Below, piece by piece: positions 27,896-32,704 of a stretch of DNA of 32,704 nucleotides. Numbering within the stretch: position 1 is the first letter of the stretch; the number at the start of each line of letters is the position of its first letter. The notes under the pieces are model-generated. The model did not search any database. It worked only from the letters and a program-made list of their open reading frames with translations, and had not been told where the DNA came from. The position numbers and the translations under genes were made by a program. Source of the DNA: Actinomycetota bacterium (GTDB lineage: Bacteria > Actinomycetota > Nitriliruptoria > Nitriliruptorales > Nitriliruptoraceae); assembly GCA_019347575.1 (NCBI GenBank), contig JAHWKY010000041.1, forward strand, positions 1-32,704. The letters are read 5' to 3'.

Positions 27896-30775
27896 GTGCG
27901 CACCCTCGTAAGCGCCCGCAGCGCCATCATCGTGCTCGTCCTCGGGCTCGCCGTCGCTCTGACCCCGCTCCTCGGCGGCACCCCCACCGCGTTCAGCGGC
28001 CCCGTCGCCGACAGCGACGAGGCCTACCTGCTCTGCGGCCGCATCTTCCCCGACCCCCAGGCCTACTGGGCCCCTGAGGTCGGCGAGGACACGCCCCATC
28101 CGGGCACGGGCACGTCGCCCTACGCCAAGGGCAACGCCCCGTGCGCTGCACGGACGTTCATCACCTTCGAGGAGGCGCTCCGCGGACTGACCTACATGGC
28201 GGACGCGAACGAGACGACGAAGGACTACGTCGACCTGATCGACCTGACCACCAGCGAGGACCCGCGCATCCGCGAGGTGCTCGACGAGGAACTGGGCGAC
28301 GGCTGGTCGGAGGGGATCCCCAACGAGCTGGGCGAGCGTGAGAAGGTGCCGATGTACCTCGTGAAGGTCACGGCCCCCGAGGGCGAGCAGCTCGTCGAGG
28401 GTGTGCCGATCGTCCCCGAGGCGGAGCGCGATCACTTCGTGTGGGCGCTGTCGATGCACGGCATCGAGCGGGCTGGTATCGAAGGAGGGCTACGCGCCGC
28501 CGAGGACCTGGCGACGTGGGCGAAGGAGGACCCGAACCGTCCCATCCTCGAGACCGCTGGCGAGACCATCACCACGAGGGACGGGCTGGAGGCGCGCAAC
28601 ATCCCGGTCGGTGAGGTGATGATGCGCTCCGTGTCCTACTTCGTGCTCATGAACCCCGACGGCTGGCGCCGCGGCGACCCCGAGGCGGCGAACACCTCGT
28701 TCATGCGTTACAACGGCAACGGCATGGACCTCAACCGCGACTGGCCCGAACTCGGCCACATGGAGCCCGGCTACAGCGCCTTCTCGGAGTCCGAGAGCCG
28801 CAGCGTCGGCAAGGTCCTGCAGAACCTGTCGGACAACTGGACCGGTGGCATCGACCTGCACGGCATGGTCGTCGCCAACGCGTTCAGCTACACCCTGATC
28901 GGCGGCAGCCAGCGGCCCTACGGCAAGAACGAACGGGTCATGCAGTTCGTCGAGCAGGCCTGGGCCGACGCTGAGGAACGCCTGGCGTGGTCGCCGCAGA
29001 TCAAGCCCAACTCCGCACCCGAGCAGTGCGTCGAGTTCGCCGGCGTTGCCCCGAACGGGGACACCCACCTGCCGCCCGAGGAGGAGTGCGACCAGCGCGC
29101 CTACGGCGTGCAGTACGGGACCATCTGGGACACCATCGAGTACACCGTCACCGGGGCGATGGGCAACTGGATCGACTCACCGGTCGGGCTCAACGCCGAC
29201 GGCATCGACAACGAGATGATGCTCAGCCACCTCGGCAACTGCGGCACCGGCACCTGCTTCCTGCCTGAGGCCGAGCAGCTCCACGTCGACGGGAACAAGT
29301 CGCTGATCTACGCGATGCTCAACTTCTCGATCCAGCCCCCTCCGGCCGAGTTCGAGGTCGGAGGTGATGTCGGTTACCTCGTGAACCCGCGTCGCCTGGT
29401 CGACCACGGCTACGAGGCGCCGACCGCTCCCGAGGGCGCCGTCGACGCGGACGATGTGTCCGGGACGGCGAACCACACCGGCAGCCAGACGGTGCTGCAC
29501 AGCTGGGAGGTGGACAACGCCTCCGGTGAGACGTTCATCGCTGGGATGTCGGGCAGCGTCCGGTGGAGCAACGTCGCGGCCGAGAGCGCCGGTGACGTCA
29601 ACTCAATCGACATCGAGTACTTCGACTCGGCTAGGGGTGAGTGGATCGATCGACCCACCTACCGGGGCGGCATCCTGTACCGCACGCCGGGGGCCCACAG
29701 CGACTGGAACTACCCCGAGGACGGCGAGTACCGCCTGGTCGTCAACGGCCAGGCCCGCACGCAGGTGTTCTGGGAGCTCGAGCTGTCCACCGAGCCGGTG
29801 TGGGACCAGCCCATCCAGGCGCCCTACGACGCCACCAACATGGACTTCTTCGCCGAGCTCGAGCCGTTCCTGGGCGCGAACACGACGCTGACGGCTTTGG
29901 ACGTGGACGAGGTGCTGTCGGGCGAGCGCTCGCTGTCGGACTTCGACACCGTCATCGCCATCGACGACGCGCTGTTGCCCGGCTACAACGGCAACCGCCC
30001 TGCGGCCATGGGCGTGGACGACCTGCCACCCACGCACTACGGCCCCGCTGACGCGGCCGCGATCGGGCAGCGGCTGAACGACTTCGCCACCGCCGGTGGC
30101 AACGTCGTGCTCACGGACGACGCCATCCGCGGCGCAGCCTGGATGGGCCTGGTCGAGGACGGCGATGTGCGGAGCCGCAACGTCTACGCCGGGCACGCCT
30201 CGTTCAACACCCCCGACGGCTACGAGGACCCGCTCGCGGCGGGCCTCGACCAGCCGGGTTCCGCCGAGGGCGTCAACGGCCGCCGCCAGACCGTCGAGCC
30301 GGTGCCACTGGGCTACCCGGTCGGTGGCAACCTGCCGGAGTGGAACCTCCGTGCGAGCGCCGTGACGGGGGTCGGTGGTCGGGTCGTGGCCTACGAGAGC
30401 GGCAACAGCGACCGCGCGGCGGTGGCCGAGATCCCGGTCGGCGAAGGTGTCGTGCGCACGTTCGGGTCGGCGCTGCCGTTCCCGACCACGCAGTACTACC
30501 ACCCGCTCGGCCTGGCCAGCTACAGCATCACCGACAACGGCTACACGCTGCTGAAGAACCTCCTCGCCTGGGAGAACGCGTCGCAGTCGGCGACCCCGGA
30601 CCTGACCGACGCGGACATCACGTGGGTCGAGTCGGACACGCCGAACCGCGTCTACGTCGACGGCACGAACTTCCGCGACGAGGGCCCGTGGCTGAACGCT
30701 GGCACCGGTGCTGGCGCTGCGACCGCGAGCGCGGTTCGTCTCACGGCGGTCCAGCGTGAGCTGCTGATCCGCTAA
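27896..30775 (+). CDS. Secreted M14-family zinc carboxypeptidase, multidomain
   Basis: A 959-residue exported peptidase. Residues 1-34 are a signal peptide (IIVLVLGLAVALTPLLGG core). The M14 domain has the zinc motif H188-x-x-E191 in SMHGIERAG, the substrate-binding NPDG (253-256) and MDLNRDW (277-283), and the third zinc ligand H322 in GIDLHGM. The general-base Glu is probably E415 (TIEYTVTG) or E440 (GIDNEMM). Several Cys (47, 83, 378, 398, 449, 454) suggest disulfides. After residue 520 comes a beta-rich domain (TANHTGSQTVLHSWEVDN, YRLVVNG), and from about 645 an alpha/beta segment resembling a glutamine-amidotransferase-like sensor fold (DFDTVIAIDDALLPG, ATAGGNVVLTDDAIR). Start GTG 27896 has GAGG 9-12 nt upstream. 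It cleaves C-terminal residues of peptides outside the cell; specificity not predictable. Confidence 0.9.
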   Translation: MRTLVSARSAIIVLVLGLAVALTPLLGGTPTAFSGPVADSDEAYLLCGRIFPDPQAYWAPEVGEDTPHPGTGTSPYAKGNAPCAARTFITFEEALRGLTYMADANETTKDYVDLIDLTTSEDPRIREVLDEELGDGWSEGIPNELGEREKVPMYLVKVTAPEGEQLVEGVPIVPEAERDHFVWALSMHGIERAGIEGGLRAAEDLATWAKEDPNRPILETAGETITTRDGLEARNIPVGEVMMRSVSYFVLMNPDGWRRGDPEAANTSFMRYNGNGMDLNRDWPELGHMEPGYSAFSESESRSVGKVLQNLSDNWTGGIDLHGMVVANAFSYTLIGGSQRPYGKNERVMQFVEQAWADAEERLAWSPQIKPNSAPEQCVEFAGVAPNGDTHLPPEEECDQRAYGVQYGTIWDTIEYTVTGAMGNWIDSPVGLNADGIDNEMMLSHLGNCGTGTCFLPEAEQLHVDGNKSLIYAMLNFSIQPPPAEFEVGGDVGYLVNPRRLVDHGYEAPTAPEGAVDADDVSGTANHTGSQTVLHSWEVDNASGETFIAGMSGSVRWSNVAAESAGDVNSIDIEYFDSARGEWIDRPTYRGGILYRTPGAHSDWNYPEDGEYRLVVNGQARTQVFWELELSTEPVWDQPIQAPYDATNMDFFAELEPFLGANTTLTALDVDEVLSGERSLSDFDTVIAIDDALLPGYNGNRPAAMGVDDLPPTHYGPADAAAIGQRLNDFATAGGNVVLTDDAIRGAAWMGLVEDGDVRSRNVYAGHASFNTPDGYEDPLAAGLDQPGSAEGVNGRRQTVEPVPLGYPVGGNLPEWNLRASAVTGVGGRVVAYESGNSDRAAVAEIPVGEGVVRTFGSALPFPTTQYYHPLGLASYSITDNGYTLLKNLLAWENASQSATPDLTDADITWVESDTPNRVYVDGTNFRDEGPWLNAGTGAGAATASAVRLTAVQRELLIR

Positions 30776-31881
30776 GCGGAACGGCTCCCACCCGCAACGC
30801 CGCCCTCGAGACGCTCGAGGGCGGCGTTCGCTTCGGCGACGACGCGCTCGATCAGCTCAGCCACGGTCGGCAGATCCTCTATGACCCCCACGACCTGACC
30901 GCTCGCCATGACCCCGCCCCGCAGGTCACCCTCGACCATCGCGGCCCGCAGCAGCATGGGCGTGTTAGCGGCCATGAGCACCTGGGCCCAGGTGAGGTCG
31001 CGGGTGCGCTTCATCGCGATGCCCTCTGCCAGCATCCCGCGCAGCGGGGTGCCGGTCATGCGACGGAACGCGAGCGCGTTGCGGATCGCGGTCGTCAGGG
31101 TCCGGACACGGCCGCCGCGTTCGAGTCCCGTCACCCGCTCGGTCGCGAGCACCCGATGGGGGACGCCGTCGACCTTGGTGGTCCGCACGGTGTCGAACAC
31201 CGAGTGGCCGAGGTAGAAGCGCTTGACCTCATCGGGCACGGTCGACTCCTGGGTCAGCAGGAACCGGGTCCCCATCGCGATGCCGCTGGCGCCGTACGCG
31301 AGCGCGGCCACGAGGCCACGTCCGTCGTAGAACCCCCCGGCTGCGACGACCGGGATGTCGACCGTGTCGACGACCTGTGGCAGCAGCAGCGACGTCGGGA
31401 CCGAGCCGGTGTGGCCGCCGCCCTCGCCACCCTGAACGAGCACCGCGTCGACGCCCATCGCCGCGACCTTCTCGGCGTGGCGCTGCGCCCCGACGCTCGG
31501 TATCACCACGACGCCGGCGTCCTTCAGGCGGGCGATGAGGTCGCCCTTCGGGGCGAGCGCGAACGAGGCGACCTTCACGCCCCGCTCGATCAGCACGTCG
31601 ATGCGCTCGCCGGCATCGGGCGCGTCGGCGCGGAGGTTGACGCCGAACGGGGCGTCGGTGCGCTCGCGTACCTCCGCGATCGCGTCGGCGAGCTCCGGGG
31701 TCGTCATCGTGGCTGCGGCGAGGATCCCCAACCCGCCGGCGTTGGCGGTGGCCGCGACGAGGCGGGGGCCGGCGACCCAGCCCATACCCGTCTGGACGAT
31801 GGGGTAGCGCACCCCGACGAGGTCGCAGAAGGCGGTGCGTAGCGCAGGATGCGGCGTCGGGTGTGCCGTGGGGTCCGTCAC
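30772..31881 (-). CDS. ipdC: Nitronate-monooxygenase-family flavoprotein, IpdC-like
   Basis: A 369-residue FMN protein of the nitronate monooxygenase/enoyl reductase family. YPIVQTGMGWVAGPRL (26-41) is the N-terminal FMN strand, QGGEGGGHTGSVPTSLLLPQ (150-169) carries the family His, and VVAAGGFYDGRGLVAALAYG with GIAMGTRFLLTQES (178-213) binds the FMN phosphate. Its GTG overlaps the stop of the CoA-transferase-like gene before it (GTGA). The order CoA-transferase-like, then NMO-like matches Rv3552-Rv3553 of the mycobacterial KstR2 regulon, where IpdC acts in opening steroid rings C and D. The synteny makes IpdC likely; a stand-alone nitroalkane oxidase is the alternative. The stop shares 4 nt with the M14 stop on the other strand. 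Confidence 0.85.
   Translation of the reverse strand: MTDPTAHPTPHPALRTAFCDLVGVRYPIVQTGMGWVAGPRLVAATANAGGLGILAAATMTTPELADAIAEVRERTDAPFGVNLRADAPDAGERIDVLIERGVKVASFALAPKGDLIARLKDAGVVVIPSVGAQRHAEKVAAMGVDAVLVQGGEGGGHTGSVPTSLLLPQVVDTVDIPVVAAGGFYDGRGLVAALAYGASGIAMGTRFLLTQESTVPDEVKRFYLGHSVFDTVRTTKVDGVPHRVLATERVTGLERGGRVRTLTTAIRNALAFRRMTGTPLRGMLAEGIAMKRTRDLTWAQVLMAANTPMLLRAAMVEGDLRGGVMASGQVVGVIEDLPTVAELIERVVAEANAALERLEGGVAGGSRSA
30796..30828. terminator. Perfect terminator hairpin inside the end of ipdC
   Basis: AACGCCGCCCTCGAG and CTCGAGGGCGGCGTT form a perfect 15-bp stem with a 3-nt loop, 21 nt after the M14 peptidase stop. It lies within the last codons of the opposing ipdC gene, where it encodes the NAALERLEGGVAG segment. 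It probably ends the peptidase transcript. Confidence 0.7.
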
Positions 31882-32633
31882 GGCTCGGGCACCTCACGGT
31901 GGCGCAGGTCATCGGGGTCGAGCCAGGTGATCAGTTCGAGCTCGTCCGAGGTCGGGGCGCGGGTCTCGTGGACGTCGTCGGCGACGGCGAGCTCGAAACC
32001 GGTCGCGTCCTGTACGTCCTCGACGGCGACACCGGGGTGGACCGCGACCAGACGCACCGTGGCGTCGGGGCCGCCGAGGTCGAGCACGCCCAGGTCGGTG
32101 ACGATGGTACGGATGTCGTGGAGACGCTCAACGACCGCCCCCGCTCGTCGCGCCCGGTCCGTGCCGATGCCGGAGACGAAGTCCACCTCCTCGACGAACA
32201 CGCGGGTCGAATGGCCGGCCACCCAGTAGCTGGTGGCGTGGTTGGCGCTGTTGCCCGGCGCCCCGCGTGCTCCGAGCAGCTGCACCTTGGGGCGGCTCCA
32301 GTCGCCGATCGCGGAGATGTTCTGGTTGCCGTACCGGTCGAGCTGGCTCGCGCCCATCATGACGTGGCGTGTCCCTGCCGCGACGACCTCGAACACCTGC
32401 CGGAACGGCAGCCAGCCCTCCACCGCAGCGTCGGCCTCGGCACCGAGCGGCACAGCCTCGGCGAGCAGGTACGCCTCGCCGTCGGTCAGCAGCAGGTCGG
32501 GCTCGAACGTCGTCTTGGCAAGCAGCGCCCCGAGCCGTGGCACGGTCCCCATCGGCGAGGCCACGATCTCGCCGTCGCCGCGGAACGCCTCGGCGCAGGC
32601 GATGACGCAGTGATCGGCACGGGTGGATGTCAT
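31878..32633 (-). CDS. ipdB: CoA-transferase-fold hydrolase, beta subunit, IpdB-like
   Basis: A 251-residue protein of the class I CoA-transferase superfamily. ADHCVIACAEAFRGDGEIVASPMG (6-29), DLLLTDGEAYLLAE (46-59), EGWLPFRQVFEVVAAG (72-87), VMMGASQLDRYGNQNISAIG (91-110), APGNSANHATSYWVAGH (125-141) and HPGV (199-202) match, as I recall them, the mycobacterial IpdB sequence in order and length (about 250). With IpdA it forms a heterodimer that hydrolytically opens the last steroid ring (COCHEA-CoA). IpdA would be immediately upstream and falls outside the window. ATG 32633 has GGAGG 2-6 nt upstream and a 22-codon ORF overlapping it by 4 nt. Other CoA-transferase beta subunits remain possible but fit less well. 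Confidence 0.85.
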   Translation of the reverse strand: MTSTRADHCVIACAEAFRGDGEIVASPMGTVPRLGALLAKTTFEPDLLLTDGEAYLLAEAVPLGAEADAAVEGWLPFRQVFEVVAAGTRHVMMGASQLDRYGNQNISAIGDWSRPKVQLLGARGAPGNSANHATSYWVAGHSTRVFVEEVDFVSGIGTDRARRAGAVVERLHDIRTIVTDLGVLDLGGPDATVRLVAVHPGVAVEDVQDATGFELAVADDVHETRAPTSDELELITWLDPDDLRHREVPEP

Positions 32634-32704
32634 GCCTCCCCCCTGGAGGGGGGAGGGGCCGGCGTTGCCGGCCTGGGGGGTGAGGCCTGATAGGTCATGC
32701 CTCC
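32629..32704. mobile_element. Small palindromic element with flanking direct repeats before ipdB
   Basis: The 11-nt sequence GTCATGCCTCC occurs at 32629-32639 and 32694-32704, 65 bp apart; on the minus strand each is GGAGGCATGAC, a ribosome site plus ATG. Between them are two hairpins: CCTCCCCCC/GGGGGGAGG (32636-32657, 4-nt loop) and GGCCGGC/GCCGGCC (7-bp stem, 3-nt loop). The layout fits insertion of a miniature element with target duplication. It also creates a 22-codon ORF (32630-32698, minus) whose stop overlaps the ipdB ATG. Confidence 0.55.
32630..32698 (-). CDS. Possible 22-residue ORF coupled to ipdB
   Basis: ATG 32698 with GGAGG before it opens a 22-codon Pro-rich ORF (MTYQASPPRPATPAPPP...) ending in TGA that overlaps the ipdB start as ATGA. 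It consists entirely of the inserted palindromic element, so it is probably accidental in origin, but its ribosome site copies that of ipdB and it may be translated. No function proposed. Confidence 0.25.
   Translation of the reverse strand: MTYQASPPRPATPAPPPSRGEA

Follow-up and report, generated by a model that had tools for sequence, protein, structure and literature searches.

According to a review (PMC12548453, citing Supply et al. 1997), MIRUs are apparently mobile units that insert at start codons and whose internal ORF is coupled to the target gene at -4. RNA unfolding and ribosome scanning are reviewed as coupling routes in the same article (PMC12548453). MIRUs are found at 41 loci in H37Rv, and at the rnc-fpg junction, which is occupied there, other species show a near-zero intergenic gap (PMC2734929); units of 53 and 77 bp are described (PMC4213456). 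Our survey of the open-access literature, with subscription papers outside its scope, found no MIRU-like elements outside mycobacteria.

The window analyzed here, which is 32,704 nt long and constitutes the entire contig C41, ends inside a repeat. We consider it very probable that this repeat belongs to a dispersed, locally tandem 65-bp family that inserts at RTGA start codons and preserves translational coupling through a mini-ORF. The features of the locus are the following.

32630..32698, minus strand: repeat unit of 65 bp, followed at the right edge by the 4-nt RTGA; top match of covariance model R1, 96.7 bits.
32698-32630, minus strand: mini-ORF of the repeat unit, 22 codons, MTYQASPPRPATPAPPPSRGEA (ORF translation); its stop TGA (32632-32630) overlaps the ipdB ATG at 32633-32631.
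32657..32673, minus strand: hairpin 1, GGCCGGC-AAC-GCCGGCC, with a 7-bp stem (from the sequence; 98.5% of cells paired in 59 units).
32635..32656, minus strand: hairpin 2, CCTCCCCCCT-CC-AGGGGGGAGG, whose 3' arm GGGGGGAGG is the ipdB Shine-Dalgarno sequence (96.8% of cells paired in 59 units).
32629..32639, minus strand: right copy of the 11-nt repeat, i.e. the end of the Shine-Dalgarno sequence plus ATGAC, where the mini-ORF stop and the ipdB start share ATGA at 32633-32630 (from the sequence).
32694..32704, minus strand: left copy of the 11-nt repeat, located where the contig ends, with ATGA at 32698-32695; probable junction with a further, unassembled unit.
31878..32633, minus strand: ipdB-like CoA-transferase beta-subunit gene, 251 aa, the start codon of which comes from the right edge of the unit.
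30772..31881, minus strand: nitronate-monooxygenase-like gene, next in the operon (PF03060, E 1.7e-82).

The two copies of the direct repeat (GTCATGCCTCC, or GGAGGCATGAC on the minus strand) are spaced by 65 nt and enclose both hairpins, and the folding energy of the element amounts to -44.1 kcal/mol (z = -3.6). On the minus strand the order is GGAGGCATGACC-TATCAGGCCTCACCCCCCA-GGCCGGCAACGCCGGCC-CCTCCCCCCTCCAGGGGGGAGGC-ATGACATCC, the final ATG opening the ipdB-like gene. An initial, sequence-only reading of this DNA had described an 11-nt direct repeat flanking two hairpins, together with a 22-codon ORF, all of which are present where it had placed them. The ipdB-like protein shares at most 65% identity with actinobacterial loci, its closest matches, and its PF01144 match (E 4e-4) falls short of the curated cut-off. 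At the following junction the GTG of the nitronate-monooxygenase-like gene overlaps the ipdB stop as GTGA, and this junction is devoid of the element.

The gene upstream of the unit lies beyond the contig end. No close orthologue of ipdA was found in the assembly, where the best CoA-transferase alpha protein is 37% identical to Streptomyces IpdA; ipdA is thus absent although the assembly is 98.8% complete. Contigs C9, C49, and C61 likewise break inside repeat arrays. Because contigs break in arrays and ipdA is missing, the repeat may cause gene loss in the present assembly.

When the 4.9-Mb genome was searched with the core CAACGCCGGCCCCTCCCCCCT, 63 matches were obtained with up to 3 mismatches, compared with 0 for the reversed control. 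The window repeat is therefore not a chance occurrence, and the alternative that the hairpin core would be single-copy fails. The 63 cores are distributed over 40 arrays of 1-3 units each, with a 65-bp period, and a covariance model of the units gave 64 matches in the genome, mostly at 60-97 bits. A comparable copy was absent from all 60 relatives searched, and the core pattern was not found in viral contigs. No family was reached in Rfam, the best scores being 19.1 and 18.2 bits for gathering scores of 40 and 37. The present genome was the sole representative of its genus among those searched, and no insertion/deletion polymorphism was observed.

All 40 arrays are in the sense orientation relative to the downstream gene. 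Their right edges coincide, in 36 of the 39 visible cases, with the start codon of an ORF that spans at least 92 codons and displays a third-position GC coding signature, and at 21 of the 31 visible left edges a coding-like upstream gene terminates with the TGA of the first RTGA. Since as many as 370 RTGA sites occur in the 32.7-kb window, the placement of the arrays at gene starts is not random. According to Pfam, the gene pairs at these sites comprise gatA-gatB, hisD-hisC, ctaA-ctaB, a livG-livF-like ABC pair, a Sua5 gene with a phosphatase gene, and two ArsA genes; nuoJ, moaE, and ipdB are other target genes. The earlier proposal that the site is a gene junction is borne out by the 21 of 31 left edges, but about one third of the arrays lie at start codons without an overlapping upstream gene. 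Because the latter arrays are often preceded, ahead of the first RTG, by what resembles a native ribosome site (e.g. GGAGGAGGC-ATGACC, where C9 ends), the target is, as judged from the array edges, the start codon and not solely a gene-gene overlap.

A few arrays are off-pattern: one is situated some 40 nt before gatC, another leads via a 13-codon ORF with a GTGA overlap into a luciferase-like gene, and a truncated unit is present on C11. No clearly neutral intergenic or antisense copy was encountered in the genome, and none of these off-pattern ones is a recognized antisense insertion. For this reason it is conceivable, though we lean against it, that the repeat is actively aimed at start sites, for example through RNA- or translation-linked integration, as opposed to inserting anywhere and surviving only there.

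Empty sites were sought in relatives, and they were found. The ipdA and ipdB genes share a 4-nt NTGA overlap in 77 of 80 related loci, and the same type of overlap is present between hisD and hisC in 26 of 29 relatives and between gatA and gatB in 18 of 28. The nuoJ gene of most genomes of the same family starts with ATGACCGG right at the apparent nuoI stop; in the present genome nuoI and nuoJ are separated by two units, and neither the nuoI-like stop nor the nuoJ start is altered. Similarly, the N-terminus of the window ipdB, MT-x-TRA, is the same as in relatives, which indicates that its own start is intact.

A second repeat family was observed in the course of this work, GTGCTCAAGTAGCCGAAGGCG(A/G)TAGCAC, which has complementary ends and is present in about 15 copies, arranged in tandem every 36 or 39 bp. 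It is located at G000 C64:28-133 (locus L113:28-133) and also on C6, C19, C22, C40, and C2. The copies at C64 are in frame within the 3' part of a nuoI-like gene (SAQVAEGDSTT repeats), in the manner of a palindromic element that has inserted into coding sequence.

We considered what is duplicated upon insertion. The sequence-only reading had proposed an insertion with target duplication, the 11-nt repeat representing the duplicated site. Insertion at a stop/start overlap agrees with our data, but the length of the duplication does not. The 6 nt preceding the first RTGA are GGAGGC at just 2 of the 31 visible left edges, whereas nearly every unit ends with GGAGG(C/G/T). This argues that the 11-nt repeat is a unit-unit junction and that GGAGGCA belongs to the unit. 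The duplicated target would then comprise about 4 nt, either RTGA or TGA(C). Thirteen arrays have GTG as the first RTG and ATG as the last one, versus 1 with the reverse arrangement (exact McNemar p = 0.002), which indicates that the element itself supplies the A of the new ATG and that TGA(C) is duplicated. Furthermore, since the 11-nt repeat is such a junction, the window unit is probably not the single insertion that had been supposed but the final unit in an array of at least two, running off the contig end.

At the right ends of five arrays (L119, L129, L130, L134, and L141), the downstream gene begins with 4-6 codons that match the unit head. In this way N-termini, e.g. those of hisC and ctaB, seem to have been extended or replaced by the repeat; the extra codons of hisC are missing in relatives. 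We rejected the possibility that these unit heads represent a long target duplication, as just 5 of 32 last units strongly match the gene start and the relatives lack the extra hisC codons. For the same reasons these matches more likely derive from an additional, truncated unit that has fused with the gene. With five arrays carrying a unit head at the 5' end of the gene, some insertions are not clean.

Both edges could be scored in 51 units. A 4-nt overlap exactly couples 41 of them (65 or 68 nt), 7 are in-frame fusions (63, 66, or 69 nt) and 3 are neither. The earlier suggestion that the upstream stop and the downstream start are both retained, with a coupled 22-codon ORF in between, thus appears to hold for the family, in 41 of 51 units. 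The reading frame of the constant part, which spans about 48 nt, differs among arrays (e.g. SPPRPATPAPPPSRGEA, TPQAGNAGPSPLKGEG, and HPPGRQRRPLPPRGGRQ), so that no single peptide is conserved. Among the units of non-standard length, 12 of 15 are coupled or fused, compared with 10 expected by chance. As this excess is not significant, we rejected length compensation as proof of selection on the frame; continued selection on it is unproven, and recent spread alone may account for the conserved frame.

Across 59 distinct units, 97.6% of the stem cells are paired, and in hairpin 1 two pairs show a change on both sides, in one unit each. Because the Shine-Dalgarno sequence GGGGGGAGG forms the 3' arm of hairpin 2, the latter should close the downstream start until a ribosome finishing the mini-ORF opens it. 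A strong and conserved hairpin that sequesters the Shine-Dalgarno sequence would also fit a regulatory element, an attenuator or RNA switch that selection maintains at about 40 genes for the tuning of translation, instead of a mobile repeat that is tolerated. This explanation is further favored by the two double-sided changes, which exceed most shuffles, and by an upstream C run that, by inspection, could pair with the Shine-Dalgarno sequence instead. Yet the targets are mixed housekeeping and catabolic genes without a common theme (nuoJ, gatB, hisC, ctaB, moaE, livF-like, and ipdB), the element is absent at the same sites in relatives, and the copy number varies from 1 to 3, with units that are locus-specific. 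We therefore consider a regulatory element unlikely.

Short, dispersed, hairpin-bearing units in tens of copies are also reminiscent of a REP/BIME-type palindrome family moved by a RAYT (Y1) transposase. In a covariance search of the other genomes of the class and of about 390 genomes of the phylum, just weak hairpin-like matches (27-33 bits) were obtained, and this weak likeness to GC-rich palindromes in distant genomes would point in the same direction. We rejected these matches as relatives of the family, since those inspected were generic C-run/G-run palindromes or lay in unrelated sequence. At loci L258 (G366), L257 (G323), and L260 (G250), distant genomes have multi-copy C-run/G-run palindromes of their own, which weakly resemble hairpin 2; at L258 several of them are found within about 700 bp. 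A scan for Y1_Tnp (PF01797) gave 0 matches in the genome, though five control genomes did give matches. REPs are usually located outside genes, in either orientation, whereas the present units lie at gene starts in one orientation. Mobilization by a RAYT is for these reasons very unlikely.

A third explanation dispenses with a mobile element: start regions would be duplicated locally by slippage and homogenized between loci. Units of the same array differ at 2.3 of the 27 compared sites, as against 8.8 between arrays, and none of 2000 permutations gave a value as low; units within an array being more alike than those of different arrays, the comparison clearly indicates that arrays grow by local duplication. 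This local growth and the unit head at the 5' end of five genes are what slippage with homogenization has in its favor, but it is hard to reconcile with a constant part of about 48 nt at 40 unrelated loci, with the many single-unit arrays, and with the lack of the repeat at the same junctions in relatives, and we regard it as most improbable. Finally, an assembly artefact at the contig end, which the ending of the window in a repeat, as for C9, C49, and C61, might have suggested, is refuted by the internal copies, most other arrays being internal to long contigs and bordered by unique sequence on either side.

The reading that we favor, a start-codon-inserting repeat that maintains coupling, can be formulated as follows. 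A presumably mobile unit would insert at the RTGA of a gene start, whether or not its TGA is also the stop of an upstream gene, and about 4 nt (TGA or TGAC) would be duplicated. The left edge of the insert retains the original stop and start site, and the right edge provides the downstream gene with a new Shine-Dalgarno sequence and usually an ATG. The 22-codon ORF of the unit begins at the old start site, and its end overlaps the new start as ATGA; one ribosome could thus translate the upstream gene, then the mini-ORF(s), and then the downstream gene. The hairpin holding the Shine-Dalgarno sequence would shut the downstream start, to be opened by the ribosome on the mini-ORF, and the effect of an insertion on expression would be near-neutral. 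Once inserted, a unit would be copied locally to give arrays of 2-3. The number of copies, their sites, orientation and frame, the empty sites of relatives, and the homogeneity of arrays are seen directly in the sequences, whereas mobility, gating by the hairpin, and the near-neutral effect on expression are inferred. With its Shine-Dalgarno sequence locked in a strong hairpin, the repeat predicts that downstream translation depends on translation of the mini-ORF. The approximately 40 sites, with their 1-3 units and several broken or fused frames, form a natural set for testing whether coupling makes insertions tolerable.

Compared with known systems, the family shares with short upstream ORFs that promote translation of the gene coupled to them (reviewed in PMC12548453; PMC6728339) a stop that overlaps the next start, but its mini-ORF is itself a repeated, apparently mobile unit. 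Like MITEs and the pneumococcal BOX/RUP-type repeats (PMC3049150), the units are small, non-autonomous, interspersed, and endowed with secondary structure, but they lack terminal inverted repeats and their site is the start codon itself. A search of the unit for inverted repeats of at least 9 nt found the internal hairpin only and no terminal ones, which weakens the label of MITE. REP/BIME sequences with RAYT are likewise short, dispersed, and hairpin-forming; the present family differs by the lack of a RAYT gene, its start-codon placement, its unidirectionality, and the presence of an ORF and a Shine-Dalgarno sequence. The likeness is most extensive with MIRUs: a short unit at tens of loci with local tandem arrays (here 63-64 units in 40 arrays), insertion at start codons/DTGA (here 36 of 39 right ends and 21 of 31 left ends), an internal ORF with a 4-nt overlap (here 41 of 51 units), empty junctions in relatives, and unit lengths that are 2 modulo 3 (53 and 77 for MIRUs, 65 here). 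The present family differs by its occurrence in another genome lineage, its 65-bp unit, and its double GC-rich hairpin with the Shine-Dalgarno sequence in a stem. By analogy of published features, not of sequence, it would work like a MIRU, so that self-coupling repeats inserting at start codons do not seem to be a peculiarity of mycobacteria.
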